The notes under the pieces were generated by a model. It did no database searches, was not told where the DNA came from, and was given only the letters and a program-made list of their open reading frames with translations. DNA of 51,055 nt from an uncultured Dehalococcoidia bacterium (lineage in GTDB: Bacteria > Chloroflexota > Dehalococcoidia > Lucifugimonadales > CAJWUJ01): contig CAJWUJ010000010.1 in assembly GCA_913047625.1 (NCBI GenBank), forward strand, positions 1 through 51,055. The letters are read 5' to 3'. The position numbers were made by a program, and so were the translations under genes. Positions 5,017 through 15,656 of this stretch are shown here, in pieces. Every line of letters starts with the position of its first letter. Position 1 is the first letter of the stretch.

Positions 5017-5037
5017 TATTAGTTGTAGTAACTAATA
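5017..5037. terminator. Weak inverted repeat at the convergent end of mqnC
   Basis: TATTAGTT (5017-5024) and AACTAATA (5030-5037) form an 8-bp perfect stem with a five-base loop that spans the mqnC stop codon. It lies where two convergent genes end. The stem is AT-rich and has no clear U-tract on either strand, so termination is uncertain. Confidence 0.25.
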
Positions 5038-6131
5038 TGTTCGTACTCTGTTGTTCTCTGAACAGGAATGAATCCAGCCTCTCTTATCATGCGAAGCACT
5101 TCTTCTTTTGTAGTACGATTGTAAAATCCTGCTTCCTGCATCACATTTTCGTCAAATAGGGTTCCGCCAAAATCGTCCGCTCCAAAATGTAACGCTATCT
5201 GACCTGTCTTTTTCCCTTCGGAAAACCAAGATGCTTGAACATGCTGGATGTTATCAAGATAAATTCTTGATAACGCTATCATACGAAGATACTTGTTGGG
5301 ACCTGATTCTACTTTAACTTTATTAGCCAGTGGGGTATTTTCTCGTTTGTAACTCCATGGAATAAAAGCAGTGAATCCTTCTTTTCCGGCAGCTAACGCC
5401 TCGTCTTGCAACGATCTTACATGTTCTAAGTGTTCAATAATATCTTCGTCCGTTTCCAAATGACCGTACATTAGAGTAGCTGTAGTCCGGTAATCTAATA
5501 GATGTGCCTGACGATGTACCTCAAGCCAGTCGTTGACTTTGCCCTTAGGGGATAACCTGCTAATCTGATGTTTCACTCTGTCCGATAGTACTTCCGCACC
5601 TCCACCCGGTAAGGTAGTCTGTCCTGCCTTTTTTAATCTAAATAACACTTCATGCACCGAAGCCTCGGTAACTTCCGCCATCTTATTAATCTCCGGGGCT
5701 GAAAAAAAGTGAGGTGTCAAACCAGGAAACGTTTTTCGAGTACGTCGAACCAAATCTTCATAATATTCCATCGGCAATGCAGAATTAAGGCCACCTTGTA
5801 TGAGCACAGTGGTAACCCCTTGCTCCACTGCTTTACCTATTTGGGTAAGCATTTGATCTACTGAATAAGTATATTTATCTGTATCTTTTTCAGTTCGATA
5901 GAAGGCACAAAATGTACAGTATGCATCACAGACATTTGTGTAATTCAAATTCGTATCTACTACAAATGTCACTGATTGTTGGGGATTTTTCAAGAGGCGC
6001 ACTTTCTGAGCGACGGATCCGATATCAAGCAATGGGGCGTTCTTCAGTAATTGCAATCCTTCACCGCCATCTAATCTTTCTCCTTGAAGAGCCTTCGTGT
6101 AAATGGTATTTAACGCAGTGGACACAGTCAC
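5019..6131 (-). CDS. mqnC: Cyclic dehypoxanthinyl futalosine synthase MqnC (radical SAM)
   Basis: This 370-residue radical-SAM enzyme cyclises dehypoxanthinyl futalosine in the futalosine menaquinone pathway. The [4Fe-4S]-SAM ligands are C68, C72 and C75 in 'CDAYCTFCAF', the MqnC/MqnE/CofH-type signature. 'LPGGGAEVLS' and 'SWFSEGKKTGQIALHFGADDFGG' are further family hallmarks. Length is normal for MqnC. The start ATG overlaps the end of mqnA by four bases, indicating translational coupling in the mqnE-mqnA-mqnC operon. It is distinguished from MqnE by the short N-terminus ahead of the cysteine motif and by the 'SWFSEGKK' region. Confidence 0.95.
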   Translation of the reverse strand: MTVSTALNTIYTKALQGERLDGGEGLQLLKNAPLLDIGSVAQKVRLLKNPQQSVTFVVDTNLNYTNVCDAYCTFCAFYRTEKDTDKYTYSVDQMLTQIGKAVEQGVTTVLIQGGLNSALPMEYYEDLVRRTRKTFPGLTPHFFSAPEINKMAEVTEASVHEVLFRLKKAGQTTLPGGGAEVLSDRVKHQISRLSPKGKVNDWLEVHRQAHLLDYRTTATLMYGHLETDEDIIEHLEHVRSLQDEALAAGKEGFTAFIPWSYKRENTPLANKVKVESGPNKYLRMIALSRIYLDNIQHVQASWFSEGKKTGQIALHFGADDFGGTLFDENVMQEAGFYNRTTKEEVLRMIREAGFIPVQRTTEYEHISYYN

Positions 6132-6904
6132 TTAACGAGTTCCTCCTTAATTTCAAGCGTTTGATATGCCTGTTGAAAGGCATGAACAGCAGTCCAGTCT
6201 TCAGGTTCTAACAAATATCTGAACCGGCCGAGGTATTGAACCACATCATCTGCAGACATTGTGTCTGATGCAGCCTCATTCTTTATACTTTCAAATTGTT
6301 CGCCTATATTCATCTTAAGTGACTTCTCTAACTTTTCTGCTAACTTTGCCTTGTAAAGTGTATCAACATCACGCCTAACCATCCAGAGAGCAAATACAAA
6401 AGGCAAATTCTTCCATTGCAACCACTCCCATGCTAAATCAAAATAGTAGGGAAACGCCATCCCTGCCTCAGGCTTTTGCAAAGCCTGATCACCTATTAGC
6501 AAGAACGCGTCACACGTATCAACTGTATCCAAGGCACTATACTCAAGTGGTACAACCTTCTCTTTCTTCTCTAATAATATTCTCAGCAGATTCACTGACG
6601 TAGCTGTTTCCGCAGTAATTCCAATCACTTTGCCGTGCAACTCTGCCATCGGAACTCTTGAATAAAGCGCTACACTCCCAACCCTTCCCTTGATACTAAG
6701 ACCCATTCCTCCAACAGGTTCAAACTCATCCCAGAGCTTCAGACAATCCACAAGAGATAATAAACCAGCATCAAGTTGTCCTTCTCTAGCACATTCACCC
6801 ATAACCCGCGGCACTAAAGACACAAGTTCAAATTCAGGACAACTTAGGTCACTATAAAAAGGGATGGAATTCAAGTAGGGGATCTGTCCAACCCTAATTG
6901 TCAT
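6128..6904 (-). CDS. mqnA: Chorismate dehydratase MqnA
   Basis: This 258-residue protein dehydrates chorismate to 3-enolpyruvoyl-benzoate, the committed step of the futalosine pathway. The N-terminus 'IRVGQIPYLNSIPFYSDL' is diagnostic for MqnA. The fold is the periplasmic-binding-protein-like MqnA/MqnD type, but there is no signal peptide and it acts in the cytoplasm. The gene overlaps mqnE by 11 bases and mqnC by four, so it sits in the middle of a tightly coupled operon. Homology to MqnD explains the shared fold, but the two are clearly separated by their N-terminal motifs. Confidence 0.94.
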   Translation of the reverse strand: MTIRVGQIPYLNSIPFYSDLSCPEFELVSLVPRVMGECAREGQLDAGLLSLVDCLKLWDEFEPVGGMGLSIKGRVGSVALYSRVPMAELHGKVIGITAETATSVNLLRILLEKKEKVVPLEYSALDTVDTCDAFLLIGDQALQKPEAGMAFPYYFDLAWEWLQWKNLPFVFALWMVRRDVDTLYKAKLAEKLEKSLKMNIGEQFESIKNEAASDTMSADDVVQYLGRFRYLLEPEDWTAVHAFQQAYQTLEIKEELVK

Positions 6905-7991
6905 AAATCTTTATCTCCTGATATAAGGCGTCGCGTTCTACTGGGATTTTGCCTGCTTCTCTAATTAATCCCAATAAGCGTTCCCGTGCTAATCCTACAG
7001 GACTGCTTGCTTTTGCTGCATGAGCTATCTTTTCCTCGCCTATGGTTCCATCCAAATCACTAGCACCGAAATTCAAAGCTATGGACGCTGTATTTTCACC
7101 CATCATGACCCAATACGCCTTAATATGCGGGATATTATCAAGCATAAGCCTAGCTGTGGCTAAAGTTTTCAAATCTTCCATTGGTGAAGCCTGATGTTCA
7201 ACCAAATTAGTTTCTCCTACTTGATATTCAAGAGGAATGAACGAGAAAAAGCCTCCGGTTTCGTTTTGCAACTTGCGAATTTCCATCATGTGCCGGATGC
7301 GTTCCTCGTATGTCTCGATATGCCCAAATAACATAGTGGCATTTGATCGTATACCCATCCGATGAGCTATTCTGTGAATTTCAAGCCATTTATCGGCTCC
7401 TATTTTCCCAGGAAACAATAGCTTGCGGACACGTTCTGAAAACACTTCAGCTCCACCACCAGGCATTGCATCTAAGCCAGCATCTCTCATGGTTGCAAGA
7501 ACCTCTTCATATGATAGCCTGAAGCGCTTCGAAAAATAATCGATTTCAGCTGCTGTCCAAGCCTTTATGTTTATTTCCGGATGTTCTTGGCGAATGGTAC
7601 TGATAATACTTACATATGTTTCAAAGGGCCAGTCAGGATGATGACCACCAACAATATGGACTTCATGCAGTTCAGGAGTAATTTTTGATAGTATTTCCTC
7701 CATTGTCATCTCATAAGCCCCATCCTGTCCTTTCTTCTTGGCGAAGTCGCAAAACTTGCAGGATAAAACACATAAGTTAGTCGGGTTTATCTGTCTATTG
7801 AAAACAAAGTAGACCTTTTGATCCCATAGTTCTGTTTTTACGTAGTTCGCCATAGCACCGAGGCCAGTAATGTCCTTGGTGCGCAAACAGGCCATTCCAT
7901 CTTCAAATGAAAGTTCCTCATGTCGAAGGATTTTTTGCCAGATTTGATCCAAGGCAGGATCACTAAGGATCATTTGTTCTTTAAGATTCAT
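6894..7991 (-). CDS. mqnE: Aminofutalosine synthase MqnE (radical SAM)
   Basis: This 365-residue radical-SAM enzyme joins 3-enolpyruvoyl-benzoate to the adenosyl moiety of SAM to form 6-amino-6-deoxyfutalosine. The cluster ligands are C74, C78 and C81 in 'CVLSCKFCDFAKK'. 'VGGHHPDWPFE', 'MPGGGAEVFS' and 'ALNFGASDLDGT' are family features. It is the first gene of mqnE-mqnA-mqnC. A near-consensus promoter lies at 8083-8111, giving a leader of roughly 85 bases that contains a 10-bp palindrome (GCCAATTGGC, 8049-8058). The ribosome site is weak. Use of MqnE implies an aminofutalosine deaminase or nucleosidase branch encoded elsewhere. Confidence 0.95.
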   Translation of the reverse strand: MNLKEQMILSDPALDQIWQKILRHEELSFEDGMACLRTKDITGLGAMANYVKTELWDQKVYFVFNRQINPTNLCVLSCKFCDFAKKKGQDGAYEMTMEEILSKITPELHEVHIVGGHHPDWPFETYVSIISTIRQEHPEINIKAWTAAEIDYFSKRFRLSYEEVLATMRDAGLDAMPGGGAEVFSERVRKLLFPGKIGADKWLEIHRIAHRMGIRSNATMLFGHIETYEERIRHMMEIRKLQNETGGFFSFIPLEYQVGETNLVEHQASPMEDLKTLATARLMLDNIPHIKAYWVMMGENTASIALNFGASDLDGTIGEEKIAHAAKASSPVGLARERLLGLIREAGKIPVERDALYQEIKIYDN

Positions 7992-8117: not shown

Positions 8118-10823
8118 CTAACCCCTTTTACTGACTAACTTATTCACTCTTACTGCGCAAACTTTGTATTCCGGGATTTTTGACACCGGATCATACACTG
8201 AATTAGTCAGGTAATTTGCTGAAAAAGTCCCTAGTTTCAAAAACGGTACGAAGACCTCACCCCTCTTAACCGCATCAGTGCACAGAATTTGACCTTCCAA
8301 GGTTCCTCTCCGTGATTCAAGCATAACGGTTTCTCCATCACCAACTGAATACACTAGGGCATCCTCTGGATGCATCGCTATGTGTAGATTTGGGGCCCGT
8401 GCCAATAAATGACGAGCACGACGTGTAATAGTTCCGCCGTGCCAGTGATAAAGAGTTCTCCCTGTGTTCAAGATCAAAGGGTATTTCCGATTCGGTAGCT
8501 CAGCCGCAGGTTCTCCTTGCTCAAAAGCTACAAATTTAGCCCTTTCACCAATGGGGAACGAGTCCTGATACAGAAATCGAGTGCCGGAATCGGATAAATC
8601 TCTGCACGGCCATTGCAAACCTCCTTCATTATCCAGCCTACTGTAATTAATACCGCCCACAATCGGGGTCAGACTAGCCATCTCATCCCAGATTTCACTA
8701 GGGTTTAGAAACTTGAATTGCTTCTGCAAACGTAGGTCGCACAACTTATCCATCGTGTTCGCCAAATCACATATAATTTGCCAATCAGGACGACTCTGAT
8801 TGCGAGGACTCATTGCCTTTCGTACTCTCTGCACACGTCTTTCACTATTGGTGAACGTGCCATCTTTCTCTGCGAAGCTTGTGGCAGGAAATATCACGTC
8901 AGCTAAAACCGCTGTTTCGTGCATGAAAATATCTTGTACGACCAAAAACTCTAATTGCTTAAACAATGATTCGGCATGCCTGAGATTAGGCTCGCTCAGC
9001 ATAGGATTCTCTCCTGTGATGTACATAGCTTTAACAGTTCCGTCGCTAATCCGTTCAACCATATCAGTAACAACTAAACCAGGAGTTTTTGGTAAGTCAC
9101 CTTGCCATCTATCAGAAAACTTCTTGATAGATTCTTCAGTGAGTAATTGATACCCCGGAAGACTATTAGGTAAGCAACCCGCGTCCCCACAACCTTGCAC
9201 ATTATTTTGCCCTCGAAGAGGTGAGATCCCAGACCCCTCTTTACCCAGTTGTCCCGCAACAAACGCCAAATTCAAAAGACTATGTGCATTTGCAGTACCA
9301 TTGGTATGCTGGGTAATACCCATGCCCCATATGAGACACGAGCCACTAAAATCCGGTGTAGCATAGAATTTTCCCGCGAGGCTTATTTCCCTAGCAGAAA
9401 CACCAGTAATTTTCTCCACTTTTTCAAGGGTATATTCATCAACCACCTTTCTCCATTCCTTATACCCTTCAGTTCTATTTTGAACAAAGGTTTCATCAAC
9501 TAACCCCTGGTCAATTATTGCTTTTGCCAAACCATTTAAAAGAGCCACATCTGTTCCCGGATTTGGCCTCAACCACAAATCAGCATACTGACAAAGGTCG
9601 ATTCTTTTTGGATTAATGACTATGAGTTTTGCACCTTTTTCTACAACAGCACGTTTCATTCTGGCTGCTGCGACAGGATGATTCGAAGTGGCGTCCGAAC
9701 CTACAACCATAAGACATCCGGCTTGTTCATAATCAATATATGAATTGCTTGTTGCCCCACTACCAAGAGAAGTCAGCATAGCCTCTACTGATGGTGAATG
9801 GCATAGCCTTGTACAGTGATCAATATGGTTACTTTTCATGACTAACCGTGCGAATTTCTGCTGGATATATCCATCTTCATTAGTAGCTTTGGCAGAACAC
9901 AAAGTAGCAAAACTCCCGTCCCTGTAATCCTTCAGTTTTCTCGCGGTATATTCAAGAGCTTCATCCCATGAAGCAATTTCAAATACTCCATTCTTTTTAA
10001 TTAACGGCTCGCGTATTCTGTCCGGATGATTTACAAATGTGGTACCAAATCGACCCTTCACGCACAACATTCCGACGCTAGAAGGATTGCTGGGATCGTC
10101 ATTAACTTCAACGATTTCCTCTTTCTCATCAACCTTGACTTTAATACCGCAACCCACCCCACAATAAGGACAAGTGGTATCAGTTACTGTCGTAGTTTGC
10201 TGTGATACATTCTTAACCGTTATGGCACCTGTGGGACATACCGACAAACACTGCCCGCAGGTAGTGCAAACAGATTCCACAAGGGGTTTATCCAAAAAAG
10301 TACCGACTTTAGTTTCTAGATTGGTACCTAACATGTCGATGGCACCAATAAACTGTGCGCCTTCTTGACAGCCTACTGTGCAACGAGTACATAGGATGCA
10401 CGATTCCATCGCAATATCAAAAACAGGGTTACTACTATCAACCTGTTCTCTTTCTCTCGGTTGCCATCTGGCTTCTTTTATTCCATGATGCTTAGCTGCT
10501 ACGGAAAGATCCCCATAATCGCCATTCTCGCTCCCAGATACCATAGCCAGTGTAAGCTCAAGGACTCCTGAGCGAATTCGCTTGAGTTCTTCAGTTTCTG
10601 TTTGGATCTTTAAATCTTTTGTTGCTTGAACAGAACAAGCAGCCACAAACCCTTTTCTTCCTTCAATTTCTACCAAGCATGTTCTGCATGCTCCAATAGA
10701 ATTCATATCCCCATCTTTACAGAGTTGTGGTAAATATGTGCCCGATTGATTTACCGCATCGAGAACGGTATCAAATTCACCAACTGATACTGGTTGGTCG
10801 TTAATATATACGTTCGTACTCAT
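8118..10823 (-). CDS. fdhA: Formate dehydrogenase, molybdopterin-binding catalytic subunit (FdsA/FdhF-like)
   Basis: This is a 901-residue cytoplasmic oxidoreductase with no Tat signal. The N-terminal [2Fe-2S] domain has C35, C46, C49 and C63. Two ferredoxin-type [4Fe-4S] sites follow (C142/145/148/152 and C186/189/192/196). The catalytic part begins with the proximal [4Fe-4S] site (C218, C221, C225, C254). The metal ligand is C341 followed by H342 ('TRLCHSPS'), with the conserved Arg at R537 in 'PLRGQNNVQG'; these match Cys-type, non-selenocysteine formate dehydrogenases. The His-Cys3 site usual between the [2Fe-2S] domain and the ferredoxin domain is absent: residues 88-112 carry no Cys. 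The gene follows NuoE-like and NuoF-like genes, so electrons probably go to NAD. No fdhD is seen. Confidence 0.9.
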   Translation of the reverse strand: MSTNVYINDQPVSVGEFDTVLDAVNQSGTYLPQLCKDGDMNSIGACRTCLVEIEGRKGFVAACSVQATKDLKIQTETEELKRIRSGVLELTLAMVSGSENGDYGDLSVAAKHHGIKEARWQPREREQVDSSNPVFDIAMESCILCTRCTVGCQEGAQFIGAIDMLGTNLETKVGTFLDKPLVESVCTTCGQCLSVCPTGAITVKNVSQQTTTVTDTTCPYCGVGCGIKVKVDEKEEIVEVNDDPSNPSSVGMLCVKGRFGTTFVNHPDRIREPLIKKNGVFEIASWDEALEYTARKLKDYRDGSFATLCSAKATNEDGYIQQKFARLVMKSNHIDHCTRLCHSPSVEAMLTSLGSGATSNSYIDYEQAGCLMVVGSDATSNHPVAAARMKRAVVEKGAKLIVINPKRIDLCQYADLWLRPNPGTDVALLNGLAKAIIDQGLVDETFVQNRTEGYKEWRKVVDEYTLEKVEKITGVSAREISLAGKFYATPDFSGSCLIWGMGITQHTNGTANAHSLLNLAFVAGQLGKEGSGISPLRGQNNVQGCGDAGCLPNSLPGYQLLTEESIKKFSDRWQGDLPKTPGLVVTDMVERISDGTVKAMYITGENPMLSEPNLRHAESLFKQLEFLVVQDIFMHETAVLADVIFPATSFAEKDGTFTNSERRVQRVRKAMSPRNQSRPDWQIICDLANTMDKLCDLRLQKQFKFLNPSEIWDEMASLTPIVGGINYSRLDNEGGLQWPCRDLSDSGTRFLYQDSFPIGERAKFVAFEQGEPAAELPNRKYPLILNTGRTLYHWHGGTITRRARHLLARAPNLHIAMHPEDALVYSVGDGETVMLESRRGTLEGQILCTDAVKRGEVFVPFLKLGTFSANYLTNSVYDPVSKIPEYKVCAVRVNKLVSKRG

Positions 10824-10848: not shown

Positions 10849-12420
10849 TTAGCTAGTTTTTAACCCTGCCTCTAATTCAGACTTAAATAATTCCAAGCTG
10901 TTTGTCACCACGTTTCCTGCCATCTGACCAAGACCACATAACGAAACTGGTAAAAGATCCGCTAAGAATTTCAATTCTGTTAGATCCGCTTTCTTTCCCT
11001 TCTTATTCAACAAGTTGTCAATAAGAGTTACTATTCTGGGAGTTCCTTCTCTGCACGGTGTACACTTCCCGCAGGATTCCACAGCATTGTACATAGCCAA
11101 ATTCCTAATTACCTCTAATATTGGGATTCGATCATCAATTGCTACCACTCCTCCTGCTCCAAGAACTACTCCTGATGAATGCACCACTGGAGGCACTAAT
11201 TGTGAATCAAATAACTTGGTAGGAAGCATGCCACTTGATGGTCCCCCTACCGCCGCGGCTACGATAGATCTATCTGGTAATGCTCCTCCACCTATGTCAT
11301 AGATCAACTGGCCTACAGATGTTCCTAATGGCATCTCAACCAACCCCGTTCTTTGTATAGCACCACTTAATGAGAACAGCTTAGTGCCAGGACTCTCATT
11401 AGTACCAACCTGACAAAACTTTTCACCACCATCGGCAATAATTGTCGGAATGAATGCTAGGGTTTCAATATTATTGATTACTGTTGGTCTTGACCACAGC
11501 CCCGATTCTGTGGGGAAAGGAGGCCGTAATCTTGGTACTCTTCGATCTCCCTCAATAGTATTTAATAGTGTCGTTTCCTCACCGCAAACATACCCTCCAG
11601 CACCTTGCCTGACTTCTAAATCAAACGAAAAATCTGTACCCAAAATCTGAGATCCCAATAAGCCGTTTTCTAGAGCCTGAGCGATCGCGTCGTCTATTCT
11701 TTTTTTGGAAATATCAGCCTCGGCGTTTATATAGATATAGCCCTTTGCTGCACCGGAGACATACCCTGCAATGACCATTCCTTCTATGATTCTGTGAGGA
11801 TCACCCTCCATTAGGTGGCGATCTTTGTATATTCCAGGCTCACCTTCTTCTCCATTTGCAACAATATACCGTTGTTCTCTTTTGAAAGAGCGAGCACTTT
11901 TCCACTTAAGCGCTACAGGGAAATATGCTCCGCCGCGCCCCCGTAATTTACTGGTTTCCAGCACTGTTAAAACTTCTTCAGGATCCATTTGCAAGCAATT
12001 GTACAAGCTTGAATATCCACCTCTTGCAATAAATTGGTAAATATTCCCTGGATCTACAAACCCACAGTTTTCTATCACTATTCGGTGCTGTGTCCTGAAA
12101 AAGGCGTCTATCTCTGAATGATCACTTGCTTCCTCCAATGAATCTATCAGCTCAGATACTGTAACCTTCGACGGGTCAATCTTTCCTATTCTTTTGTCCA
12201 ACCCATTTTTTGAGATTATTATCTGGGGAGCGTTAAAGCACGCTCCATCGCATCCGACCTCCACGACTCTGTATGAAGAGGCCTGGTGGGAAAGTTTTTC
12301 CATCAAGACTTCAACACCTAATCCTCTAGAGCAATGCCCAACCTGTACCATGATCTTGGGCATTTTTGCTAATAGGGTTTCTTGTTCCTTCGCGTAAGCC
12401 AGTAACTTCTGCCATTTCAT
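10849..12420 (-). CDS. NuoF-like NADH-binding diaphorase subunit (FdsB/HydB-like)
   Basis: This 523-residue FMN/NAD(H)-binding subunit passes electrons to NAD. Residues 1-110 form a thioredoxin-like domain with C30, C57 and C61. The FMN/NADH domain shows 'RGRGGAYFP' (about 160-167) and 'EEGEPGIYKDRHLMEGDPH' (190-208). The C-terminal [4Fe-4S] N3-type site is C450, C453, C456 ('CGKCTPCREG') plus C495 ('LCGLGQ'). It lacks the extra C-terminal ferredoxin domain of bifurcating HydB proteins. The ATG overlaps the NuoE-like stop by four bases and 25 bases separate it from fdhA. It is the likely NAD-reducing partner of the formate dehydrogenase, and perhaps also of the aldehyde oxidoreductase upstream. 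Confidence 0.92.
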   Translation of the reverse strand: MKWQKLLAYAKEQETLLAKMPKIMVQVGHCSRGLGVEVLMEKLSHQASSYRVVEVGCDGACFNAPQIIISKNGLDKRIGKIDPSKVTVSELIDSLEEASDHSEIDAFFRTQHRIVIENCGFVDPGNIYQFIARGGYSSLYNCLQMDPEEVLTVLETSKLRGRGGAYFPVALKWKSARSFKREQRYIVANGEEGEPGIYKDRHLMEGDPHRIIEGMVIAGYVSGAAKGYIYINAEADISKKRIDDAIAQALENGLLGSQILGTDFSFDLEVRQGAGGYVCGEETTLLNTIEGDRRVPRLRPPFPTESGLWSRPTVINNIETLAFIPTIIADGGEKFCQVGTNESPGTKLFSLSGAIQRTGLVEMPLGTSVGQLIYDIGGGALPDRSIVAAAVGGPSSGMLPTKLFDSQLVPPVVHSSGVVLGAGGVVAIDDRIPILEVIRNLAMYNAVESCGKCTPCREGTPRIVTLIDNLLNKKGKKADLTELKFLADLLPVSLCGLGQMAGNVVTNSLELFKSELEAGLKTS

Positions 12421-12875
12421 GGGTGAGTACCGCCCTCCATAGCGTTAATTACATCTTGTTCTACGGCATGTGCAGTCCATTTGTGATTATGACGAAGAAC
12501 TGGAGCGACCCCACATAAAAAACCGCACTGTAACTCTTCGATAGTTGTATTATCACTGCCAGATGCTCGTGCTAGCTTATTGGCCCTAGACAATAAATCA
12601 TGCGCACCTTTTAAAACACAACTAAGTCCCGTACAAATGCCTACCACATTGCCTGAAGGTTCCCGAGTCCTTAATTCTGTATAACTGGTTGCGGAGCCCC
12701 AGACCTCGGAAACAGGAACACGCAGATGCTTGGCTGCTTCTTCCAAGGCGGATTCTTCTAGAAATCCGAACTCCTCGTGAATAAAATGTAAAACTGGAAG
12801 CAGAAATGATCGTTCGCTAGGGAAATTCTCTCGTAAGAGTTCAGCTAGTCTTTCTTTGTTCATTTTCTCTTTCAT
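12417..12875 (-). CDS. NuoE-like [2Fe-2S] subunit (FdsG-like)
   Basis: This is a 152-residue subunit with a helical N-terminal region and a thioredoxin-like [2Fe-2S] domain. The ligands C81, C86 ('CTGLSC') and C117, C121 ('CGFLC') have the family spacing. It relays electrons to or from the NuoF-like FMN subunit. Its start overlaps the stop of the aldehyde oxidoreductase gene by three bases, and its stop overlaps the NuoF-like start. A second in-frame ATG four codons in (12863) is possible. The overlaps on both sides argue that aldehyde oxidoreductase, NuoE, NuoF and FdhA are made together. Confidence 0.92.
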   Translation of the reverse strand: MKEKMNKERLAELLRENFPSERSFLLPVLHFIHEEFGFLEESALEEAAKHLRVPVSEVWGSATSYTELRTREPSGNVVGICTGLSCVLKGAHDLLSRANKLARASGSDNTTIEELQCGFLCGVAPVLRHNHKWTAHAVEQDVINAMEGGTHP

Positions 12876-14719
12876 TTCACTGAACCTTTTGCACTTTTGA
12901 CTATCTCTAGTAAATCGAGATTCCGCAGAACATTGGTCGGCACCCTACCTTGTGTATCCCATCCCCTCGCATGGTAATAGCCATCGATCATTAGGGACAG
13001 CTCCTGCTCAGTTAATCCCGTTGCCTGTTTATCAATTCCATTATACGTTTCTTCCAGAATTCGTCGAGGAAGAGTATCATCTTTTCGGTGCCATCCTTCC
13101 CTGATATTGAAGCACTTGCGCAGGGTGTTAATGCGTGTTCCAGCCCTTTCTAGCTCTTCCGCTGTCATACTCATCCCGGTAACCATTTCGTAAATAGTTG
13201 AAGATTCTGTATAAAAGTCTTCAAAGCAATTGCGCAAGAATTTGCACCAGATCATCGAATCTAGTACGGCCGAATAGTCTTCTTTCTCTGCAGCCAGTTT
13301 CCCTTTTTCCACACTTGCTTCAAATCGGTCCACTCCTGGAGCGAAGTCAGCTTCATATGCTGAAGATCTATTATGGCAAGCACCTCTCGGATTGACCGCC
13401 AATCCTAGTGCCATGGTTTTCAGTCCCCTAGGTTCGTATCCTGGCATCTCTAAACCTTTTACATGCATTGCCCAATAATCTGATCCCTGTCCAAGTGTCA
13501 TAGCTGCTTTTTTGCAACCGCCGTACAGCAATTTACCAATACCTGTTTGGTTAGATATAGCGTCCACACAGTCTATCAATGCAGCAGTGTTACCAAATCT
13601 GAGCTCAATTCCTTCAGTATCTTTTAATGTCAGTAGTCCTTGTTCAAAACACTCCATCGCCCAAGCAATAGTTACTCCTGTGCTGACAGTGTCCAGTCCA
13701 GCTAAGTCGCACATTTTACTGGCTTTAATAACCGTATTACGATCTTTAATTGCGCACAGCGGTCCTAAGGCATACAGGGTTTCATATTCCAGTCGATTTT
13801 GAATACTTTTGCCCGAATCAGTAGTTTCAAAAATCTGTTCGCATCCGATTGTACAGTTTGCGCAGTGTGCAGTCTTGATCTTAGCCGTTTTCTGTAAGGC
13901 CTCCCCACTTAAATCCTCACTATCTTCAACATGGGCGAACTGAAAATTCTGTGTGGGAAGGATACGCAATCGATTAAATGTGGCAAGGTTATCCACAGTA
14001 CCAATTAATCGGTATTTCGCCGTAGCATTACTTCTGCTTTTTTCTCTTAATAATCGATTTTTCCCTTCTAATAACTCTGGTTGGGCCACACTGATAGCAT
14101 GACTTCCATTCAATGCAATTGCCTTAAGGTTTTTAGAGCCCATAACTGCTCCTGCTCCACCTCTACCAGCATGTCTGCCTCCATCATTACTGATTGTTGC
14201 GTAATGAACCAAGTTTTCTCCTGCGGGACCAATAGAAAGAACTCTCACTACATAATCCTTGAGCGTTTCCTTAACAGTCTTTTCGGTTTCAGCTGTTGTA
14301 AGGCCAGTCAGATACTTTGCATCGAGAAAATCAACTCTTCCATTCTGGACAAAAAGCAATGTAGGCCGTTTAGCTCTACCAATAAGAATTAAGGCATCAC
14401 ACCCGCATTTCTTCAGTTCTGTCGCACAAAAGCTGGAAGATAGGGAATCGTTTATAAACCCGGTGAGTGGAGATTTGCTAACAACAGCGAACTTGCTGGA
14501 GGTAGTTAATCTAGTACCTACTAAAGGACTAGTTGCAAAAATCAGCGGACTACTAGGATCAAAAGGATCAGTACCAGGAACAGAAAACTTAAAAAGGAGG
14601 TATGCACCCAGTCCTACTCCTCCTATGTATTGCCTCAGGTGCTCTTTTTCAATATCGATCCAGTGAGATGTTTCGGAAGTAAGATCTACAACAAGAATCT
14701 TTCCGTGATAGCCAAACAT
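12872..14719 (-). CDS. aor: Aldehyde:ferredoxin oxidoreductase-type tungstoenzyme
   Basis: This 615-residue protein belongs to the AOR family, which oxidises aldehydes to acids (or reduces acids) with tungsto-bispyranopterin and one [4Fe-4S] cluster. The N-terminus 'GYHGKILVVDLTSE' is typical. The cluster ligands are C286, C289, C293 ('CANCTIGC') and probably C492 in 'DSMIWCKF'. 'DGGRHAGRGGAGAVMGSKNLKA' is the pterin-binding region. The ATG at 14719 is preferred over a TTG one codon earlier because of a GGGGGA site in the end of the moaD-like gene. It sits between the MoaD-like carrier and nuoE with essentially no gaps. No AorA-type ferredoxin subunit is present. The substrate is unknown; tungsten use is inferred from family. 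Confidence 0.92.
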   Translation of the reverse strand: MFGYHGKILVVDLTSETSHWIDIEKEHLRQYIGGVGLGAYLLFKFSVPGTDPFDPSSPLIFATSPLVGTRLTTSSKFAVVSKSPLTGFINDSLSSSFCATELKKCGCDALILIGRAKRPTLLFVQNGRVDFLDAKYLTGLTTAETEKTVKETLKDYVVRVLSIGPAGENLVHYATISNDGGRHAGRGGAGAVMGSKNLKAIALNGSHAISVAQPELLEGKNRLLREKSRSNATAKYRLIGTVDNLATFNRLRILPTQNFQFAHVEDSEDLSGEALQKTAKIKTAHCANCTIGCEQIFETTDSGKSIQNRLEYETLYALGPLCAIKDRNTVIKASKMCDLAGLDTVSTGVTIAWAMECFEQGLLTLKDTEGIELRFGNTAALIDCVDAISNQTGIGKLLYGGCKKAAMTLGQGSDYWAMHVKGLEMPGYEPRGLKTMALGLAVNPRGACHNRSSAYEADFAPGVDRFEASVEKGKLAAEKEDYSAVLDSMIWCKFLRNCFEDFYTESSTIYEMVTGMSMTAEELERAGTRINTLRKCFNIREGWHRKDDTLPRRILEETYNGIDKQATGLTEQELSLMIDGYYHARGWDTQGRVPTNVLRNLDLLEIVKSAKGSVK

Positions 14720-14722
14720 CAA

Positions 14723-15025
14723 TTATCCCCCAGCACTACTTGATATAAGTAAAAGCACATCATTAGGAGCAATTGGCTGATCCGGATCATTAGTAAATAT
14801 AGATCCGTTTAAACAATATATGTGACCCTGCTGAAGCACTATATTGCCTCCAGTTTTCTGGACAATCTTGTCAGTAGCTTGAGGGAATTGTTGAGTGAGA
14901 ACGCGGTTAATGTCAAGTAATGTAGTTCCTTCAGGCATAGTCAGTCTGAGTGATTTCATCCCAATCACCATTTGTGCCACTCCGTAAAATTCGATGGTGA
15001 ATTCGATTACATTCTTTTTAGTCAT
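14723..15025 (-). CDS. MoaD/ThiS-like sulfur carrier protein
   Basis: This is a 100-residue beta-grasp protein ending in 'SSSAGG', the Gly-Gly tail adenylylated and thiocarboxylated to deliver sulfur during molybdopterin synthesis. It overlaps mobA by eight bases upstream and abuts the aldehyde oxidoreductase gene. MoaD-like genes commonly sit next to AOR genes, where they probably support the tungstopterin. It differs from the second MoaD-like gene at 38723, which goes with an XDH-type enzyme. Whether it works with the general MoaE cannot be told; no moaE, moaA or moaC is present here. Confidence 0.85.
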   Translation of the reverse strand: MTKKNVIEFTIEFYGVAQMVIGMKSLRLTMPEGTTLLDINRVLTQQFPQATDKIVQKTGGNIVLQQGHIYCLNGSIFTNDPDQPIAPNDVLLLISSSAGG

Positions 15026-15656
15026 ACTGCCTTTTCGAAACCAAATATTGTATTTTATCCAAATCTTCTTGGGTATTTATGTTGAGAAAGCTCGTTAATT
15101 CTGGATCTTGCATACGTATTTTTTCTTCTTCTACAAAACACACTTTTTTCATGGGGAAAAATCTTGCAATCTTTAAATCATTAGCCACAATCTGTTTTTC
15201 AATCGCAGGTACACATGATTTGTTATATATAGCATGTAGAGGTTCGGGCCTGTCTTCAAGTATTGGTATTACAGCATCAAATCCTTTGGTGAATGAAATC
15301 AAATAATTTATTAATGCATGGTTCAAAAAAGGCATATCACATGCTGCCACGAAACACCAATCGTTAGTAGCCGCATTCAAACCCGAATAAATTCCTCCTA
15401 AGGATCCAGTATTCGGATAAATATCAGTGGCAATATTAACATTGCGGGGCAATCGTAAGTCTCTTTCCCTCTGTTTGTCTGAAACTACGACGATAATTTC
15501 ATCAGCACATGATCGTAACATTCGGATTATCCGATCGATCATTCGTTCTCCGGCAATAACCTCTTGCGCTTTATCACGACCCAGCCTCCTACTCATTCCG
15601 CCCGCAAGCACTATGGCTGTAAATTTTACAGAATCCCCTGACTGTAATTTTCGCAT
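15018..15656 (-). CDS. mobA: Molybdenum cofactor guanylyltransferase MobA
   Basis: This 212-residue nucleotidyltransferase attaches GMP to molybdopterin to give the (bis-)MGD form needed by formate dehydrogenase. The N-terminal 'IVLAGGMSRRLGRDK' is the MobA signature for GTP and pyrophosphate binding. 'DIYPNTGSLGGIYSGL' and 'ACDMPFLN' are the other MobA blocks. The start gives a 14-residue leader before the motif. It follows the SDR at 15693 by 36 bases and overlaps the MoaD-like gene. Presence in the formate dehydrogenase operon fits the enzyme's need for bis-MGD. AOR-type enzymes usually do not need the nucleotide. Confidence 0.92.
   Translation of the reverse strand: MRKLQSGDSVKFTAIVLAGGMSRRLGRDKAQEVIAGERMIDRIIRMLRSCADEIIVVVSDKQRERDLRLPRNVNIATDIYPNTGSLGGIYSGLNAATNDWCFVAACDMPFLNHALINYLISFTKGFDAVIPILEDRPEPLHAIYNKSCVPAIEKQIVANDLKIARFFPMKKVCFVEEEKIRMQDPELTSFLNINTQEDLDKIQYLVSKRQYD

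Follow-up and report, generated by a model that had tools for sequence, protein, structure and literature searches.

A probable MeFDH1-like, NAD-linked formate dehydrogenase alpha subunit from a Dehalococcoidia lineage without the His-Cys3 cluster site

Formate dehydrogenases with a complex-I-like N-terminus have been described with and without a His-Cys3 [4Fe-4S] cluster. The passages of PMC7171172 on the Rhodobacter capsulatus enzyme (RcFDH, FdsABGD; 6tg9, 6tga) place this cluster (A4; ligands H117, C121, C124 and C130) outside the path from bis-MGD to FMN, for which the direct chain comprises five clusters, and at the FdsA-FdsA dimer interface, where it might hand electrons between protomers. 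A 2026 review states, in the portion concerned with FdsABGD, that electron transfer occurs within tetramers and not between them (PMC13397495). In MeFDH1 of Methylorubrum extorquens (7vw6, 7e5z, 8j83, 7xqw), the missing cluster is named as a major point in which the enzyme differs from RcFDH, and the relevant section of the source infers that MeFDH1 can do without it (PMC10869683; A5 in that paper is A4 of Radon et al.). Class I formate dehydrogenases are defined by a 'CH RGQ' motif in the part of PMC8808070 that covers classification. The bifurcating WOR of Acetomicrobium mobile (BfuABCSL) is of Type 2, and its BfuA is said, in the text of PMC9304861 that deals with it, to lack A3 and A5; we infer that A3 is the His-Cys3 cluster.

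Here we describe a formate dehydrogenase gene in a 51,055-nucleotide stretch of DNA from an uncultured Dehalococcoidia bacterium; this whole stretch is referred to as the window. The alpha subunit and its cofactor sites are as follows.

8118..10823, minus strand: formate dehydrogenase alpha subunit, MeFDH1-like, 901 aa (TIGR01591; best match MeFDH1, 7vw6)
10635..10721, minus strand: [2Fe-2S] ligands C35, C46, C49 and C63 (Fer2_4; Cys in 90/90 aligned rows)
10488..10562, minus strand: residues 88-112, the place of the FdsA/NuoG His-Cys3 site, Cys-free (alignments; PF10588 unmatched)
10236..10400, minus strand: ferredoxin domain with two [4Fe-4S] sites, C142-C196 (Fer4 families; seven of eight Cys columns 90/90, C192 88/90)
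10062..10172, minus strand: [4Fe-4S] site beside the metal cofactor, C218, C221, C225 and C254 (Molybdop_Fe4S4; 90/90 rows)
9798..9803, minus strand: predicted metal ligand C341 with H342, the 'CH' motif (invariant in the 34-row alignment A1)

The 901-aa frame runs uninterrupted from 10823 to 8118. It scores 731.3 bits against the NCBIfam model TIGR01591 (Fdh-alpha; cut-off 666.25), and Pfam matches at E<=0.001 cover Fer2_4, ferredoxin, Molybdop_Fe4S4 and molybdopterin domains; by both collections the N-terminus is complex-I-like. Cysteines stand at positions 35, 46, 49 and 63, at 142, 145, 148, 152, 186, 189, 192 and 196, and at 218, 221, 225 and 254, besides others. In a full-length alignment, 15 of the 16 cysteine columns that would bind the four other alpha-subunit clusters are Cys in 90/90 rows and the remaining one, C192, in 88/90. 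The claim of an earlier sequence-only reading that the [2Fe-2S] (C35-C63) and [4Fe-4S] (C142-C196) sites are intact thus holds. Both halves of the class I motif are present, as C341-H342 and as R537-G538-Q539, the latter also invariant in A1.

The same reading had proposed that residues 88-112 are Cys-free and that the His-Cys3 site is missing, and our analysis agrees on both points. The window protein has no Cys at all between C63 and C142 (residues 64-141), so a His-Cys3 [4Fe-4S] cluster cannot form there. PF10588, the Pfam family for the His-Cys3 region, is unmatched at E<=0.001; in a control at E<=0.1 the FdsA-type protein L103 scored 58.1 bits and the paralogue L027 scored 41.2 bits against it, and neither L042 nor L086, both of them site-less relatives, gave a match. 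In alignments, the FdsA chains 9wxb and 6tg9 read H-PLD-C-LT-C-AANGD-C where the window protein has a shorter, Cys-free loop, so that the FdsA pattern H-x3-C-x2-C-x5-C is absent from it. MeFDH1, already published without this cluster (PMC10869683, in the passages comparing it with RcFDH), is likewise Cys-free at this position, and the window protein shows the same combination of a missing His-Cys3 site and 16 retained cluster cysteines.

We considered whether ligands could come from elsewhere in the chain or from non-Cys residues (H112/H113, or Asp and Asn in the loop). H112-H113 do lie near the site, and one relative, L051, keeps H-x3-C-x2-D-x5-C. However, residues 64-141 hold no Cys, both histidines and the loop residues are poorly conserved among close relatives, and the MeFDH1 structures, as described in part of PMC10869683, show no cluster at that place. 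We consider substitute ligands very improbable. That the gene is degenerate or misassembled is hardly credible, and we rejected it: the frame is intact, catalytic and cluster residues are invariant, and the site is missing from many other assemblies.

The extent of the loss was judged from 90 full-length rows. These comprise the window protein, MeFDH1 and 88 of 105 collected loci, 14 of the others being incomplete and three (by subtraction) unmatched at E<=1e-20. The site is missing from 76 rows, a number in which the window protein appears twice (once as L001) and roughly five sequences came in through two collections; 11 rows have the site, two have three Cys without the His, and one has three of the four ligands. 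An accident of chance or assembly in the window is ruled out by these 76 rows. The sample is skewed toward close relatives, since peptides taken from the window protein served as queries in the genome scan. A total of 241 plasmid records matched; 60 of these were among the matches listed, 12 were hand-picked and one (L104) was incomplete and dropped, and among the 11 hand-picked rows seven lack the site and four have it. All rows at least 48% identical to the window protein come from Chloroflexota, mostly Dehalococcoidia or SAR202, or from genomes of the same order as the window; none has a complete site and one, L051, has a partial one. Judged from these sequences, loss of the His-Cys3 site is a trait of the lineage.

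In the alignment, the vacated loop can be just a few residues long or reach about 60. L021 and L053 have a low-complexity or repeat-like insert of about 60 residues in it. The loop of L040 holds a repeat-like stretch, KSPPLIKGGWGDF, with a near-copy in L046; it is presumably a translated dispersed repeat. L051 (SAR202, 58% identity), whose partial site is that given above, takes a basal position in the group that holds the window protein. Its N-terminal part groups beside the Chloroflexota rows (SH-aLRT 85), yet is 46-47% identical to the FdsA-type L103. The partial site is possibly a relic of the lost cluster; a domain swap is the other possible reading.

Other rows depart from the FdsA pattern in the opposite direction. 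In paralogous formate dehydrogenases of about 31-34% identity (L027-L033), the His-Cys3 region is enlarged to seven Cys and a His in 7/7 rows (H-x3-C-x2-C-x5-C-x5-C-x9-C-x2-C-x5-C), and the same enlarged pattern occurs in the window's own genome (L004; G000:C1:185148-185417). In L027 each half of this region gives its own alignment to the one site of HydA1 (8a6t), though FdsA aligns as an unbroken block; L027-type enzymes may have a second cluster in the enlarged region. L023, L024 and L026 have three Cys without the His at the site. Each also has one in-frame TGA, and the match is broken near residue 340, at the active site, which together suggest that they use selenocysteine.

MeFDH1 is the closest solved relative of the window protein. 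The best PDB sequence matches over the whole protein are the MeFDH1 entries 7vw6 and 7e5z (E 8e-186), with identities of 40% in the catalytic part and 32-34% in the N-terminal parts. A fold search with an AlphaFold model (pLDDT 80.3, pTM 0.75) also placed 7vw6 first (E 4.6e-80, TMq 0.78), with FdsA-type 9ktl at E 5.6e-72 and 6tg9 at E 1.6e-69 (TMq 0.76). When the N-terminal 207 residues were searched alone, hydrogenase subunits matched best, and FdsA-type 9wxb (E 3e-24) was slightly ahead of MeFDH1 (7.5e-24). We built a full-length tree of 82 rows, excluding the site columns and omitting eight near-copies or close relatives from the 90. In this tree 58 Chloroflexota rows and eight MeFDH1-type/Planctomycetota rows are joined (SH-aLRT 96, no bootstrap), apart from the FdsA-type rows L098, L103 and L105. 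A mixture-model tree of 38 rows hand-chosen from the 90 gave the same Chloroflexota and MeFDH1-type grouping (SH-aLRT 96, no bootstrap). In a tree of the N-terminal part only (158 columns), the two groups stay unjoined. These are quick trees without bootstrap, in which long branches meet at the junction between the Chloroflexota and MeFDH1.

A single change shared by all site-less formate dehydrogenases was rejected: the one-clade constraint gave an AU p of 0.0074 on the full-length data (quick tree, long branches), because the betaproteobacterial plasmid rows L094 and L097, together with L025, fall beside FdsA. The full-length data thus call for at least two changes, to be read as losses should the site be ancestral; the N-terminal tree, taken by itself, does not require two. 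If the partial site of L051 is a relic, the loss in Chloroflexota would be separate from that in MeFDH1. Although neither the N-terminal search nor the N-terminal tree points to MeFDH1 in particular, we think it very likely that the window protein is the alpha subunit of an MeFDH1-like, NAD-linked formate dehydrogenase from a lineage without the His-Cys3 [4Fe-4S] cluster.

By analogy with these enzymes, electrons from formate would start at a bis-MGD centre with predicted W or Mo and pass through the C218-C254 cluster and the two ferredoxin-domain clusters to the N-terminal [2Fe-2S] cluster. From there they would pass to NuoF (FMN) and on to NAD+, the likely acceptor. The His-Cys3 cluster would be a side branch, and the proposed path from metal to NAD+ does without it. 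The sequence-only reading had described the subunit as one cluster short in the usual relay. One cluster fewer than in FdsA/NuoG is correct; its place in the relay is not, since the RcFDH cluster lies off the path, as set out in the portion of PMC7171172 on electron transfer. A broken relay was rejected on this ground and because MeFDH1 does without the cluster (PMC10869683, in its comparison with RcFDH). If the window enzyme works like MeFDH1, its relay would therefore be whole despite the loss. Since the missing cluster sits at the dimer interface in RcFDH, there is probably no electron exchange between protomers of the window enzyme, and perhaps the FdsA-type dimer is missing too.

Five genes lie upstream of the formate dehydrogenase gene on the same strand.

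10849..12420, minus strand: NuoF/FdsB-like FMN subunit, 523 aa (Complex1_51K, NADH_4Fe-4S and SLBB only, E<=0.001)
12417..12875, minus strand: NuoE/FdsG-like [2Fe-2S] subunit, 152 aa (2Fe-2S_thioredx)
12872..14722, minus strand: aldehyde ferredoxin oxidoreductase (AOR) family protein, tungsten type, 616 aa (AFOR_N, AFOR_C; 1aor, E 9.6e-104)
14723..15025, minus strand: MoaD/ThiS-like small protein with a GG end (weak ThiS match, E 0.0091, below cut-off)
15018..15656, minus strand: MobA-like guanylyltransferase (NTP_transf_3; MobA models match below their cut-offs)

The order of transcription is MobA-like, MoaD/ThiS-like, AOR-family, NuoE, NuoF and formate dehydrogenase, and the last four genes overlap or are closely spaced. 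A NuoE/NuoF-type diaphorase is thus encoded directly upstream of the alpha subunit. The AOR-family gene is the single AFOR_C match in the window's genome, which is 91% complete. That genome also contains another NuoE-NuoF module, after which comes a NuoG-like frame of 256 aa (G000:C1:182771-185834), and a search of it for TupA-like proteins, run without a positive control, was empty. Downstream, on the same strand, 5019-7991 in the window holds menaquinone genes of the aminofutalosine pathway; MqnE scores above cut-off for 6894-7991, and we take the two other genes to belong to the same pathway.

The window enzyme shares with MeFDH1 the domain order, the four alpha-subunit clusters, the absence of the His-Cys3 cluster, the Cys-His and RGQ motifs and a diaphorase-type partner. 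However, MeFDH1 carries its diaphorase as a single fused beta chain (PMC10478512, in the text on its subunits), whereas NuoE and NuoF are two genes in the window, so we do not assign the window enzyme to the two-subunit MeFDH1 holoenzyme; the AOR operon is likewise a feature of the window. R. capsulatus FdsABGD has the same alpha-subunit layout and separate NuoE/NuoF-type partners, but FdsA carries the His-Cys3 cluster. B. subtilis ForC (YjgC, 8rqz) is also a formate dehydrogenase with an N-terminal extension like that of FdsA; unlike the window enzyme, it has five clusters, a CQ...RGH motif, a ForE partner and a menaquinone acceptor (PMC8808070, where ForC is treated). Bfu of A. mobile resembles the window in having an AOR-type subunit with NuoE/F/G-like subunits, but has an S subunit beside the AOR-type L, and the account of BfuA in the extract of PMC9304861 describes no formate dehydrogenase domain. 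That extract assigns extra Fe-S clusters (B2-B5) to the bifurcating BfuB, whereas the 523-aa NuoF has no extra ferredoxin (Fer4) domain in Pfam at E<=0.001. This indicates simple NAD+ reduction, and an electron-bifurcating enzyme was rejected.

We surveyed upstream genes in loci L035-L092, which were sorted into groups according to their identity with the window formate dehydrogenase, and required at least 6.5 kb of upstream DNA. Among close relatives (at least 57%), 20 of 26 had enough. AOR, NuoE and NuoF were found together in 13 of these 20, and NuoE and NuoF without AOR in one (L051). The other six (L035, L047, L048, L050, L052 and L080) had no NuoE, NuoF or AOR match upstream or anywhere in the examined locus; a neighbouring diaphorase is therefore not universal. 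In two more distant groups, B and C, AOR was found in 0/11 and 0/11 loci and NuoF in 8/11 and 10/11. AOR adjoins the formate dehydrogenase gene in both Planctomycetota contigs, with no NuoE/F match in the examined DNA. One of these, L086, encodes a MoeA-like protein, a MobA whose C-terminus weakly matches MoaD, AOR and formate dehydrogenase, and on the opposite strand a TupA/TupB-like transporter (TupA 193.9 bits, cut-off 400; TupB 141.3, cut-off 320).

It is gene order that suggests that a single NADH-forming module may serve two tungsten enzymes. We reasoned that AOR, NuoE, NuoF and formate dehydrogenase could be one complex in which aldehyde and formate both feed this module; AOR may then dock on the alpha subunit, the lost cluster reflecting an altered partner face. 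The overlap or close spacing of the window genes, their recurrence in 13/20 close relatives and the adjoining AOR in 2/2 Planctomycetota contigs are consistent with this, as is the A. mobile enzyme, which joins an AOR-type subunit to the NuoG/F/E-like BfuABC (PMC9304861, PMC13328260, in the passages on its composition). However, AOR is found in 0/22 of the site-less group B and C loci with at least 6.5 kb upstream, and none is annotated in five MeFDH1-type plasmid regions (up to 4 kb of flank). Unlike a docking face, the vacated loop differs in both length and composition from one relative to another, and the linkage could stem from a shared requirement for pterin-cofactor genes. We regard a single complex as rather unlikely. 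Distinctly unlikely is a fuller version for SAR202/Dehalococcoidia, in which tungsten AOR and tungsten formate dehydrogenase share one NuoEF in one complex, oxidising aldehydes and formate to yield NADH, and the inter-protomer cluster was shed stepwise, with L051 half-way.

Formate dehydrogenase has been mentioned for SAR202 in connection with C1 oxidation (PMC5864207 and PMC5395668, in the passages concerned). The AOR-NuoE-NuoF-FDH arrangement is not described in the relevant part of PMC3971608, and we found no paper in the open-access literature that combines SAR202 with both formate dehydrogenase and aldehyde ferredoxin oxidoreductase, which is weak evidence of absence, nor any biochemistry there on a Dehalococcoidia member of this enzyme group. 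We conclude that the absence of the site is real, common to the lineage and functionally unsurprising, and ordinary given MeFDH1. The alpha subunit joins the already known MeFDH1-like kind, and the unfused diaphorase sets the holoenzyme apart from MeFDH1. In an abundant but uncultured marine lineage, formate dehydrogenases can lack the His-Cys3 cluster of the complex-I-like module, just as MeFDH1 does, in agreement with the off-path position of this cluster in RcFDH. The AOR-NuoE-NuoF-FDH operon offers a testable lead to the oxidation of aldehydes and C1 compounds by SAR202.
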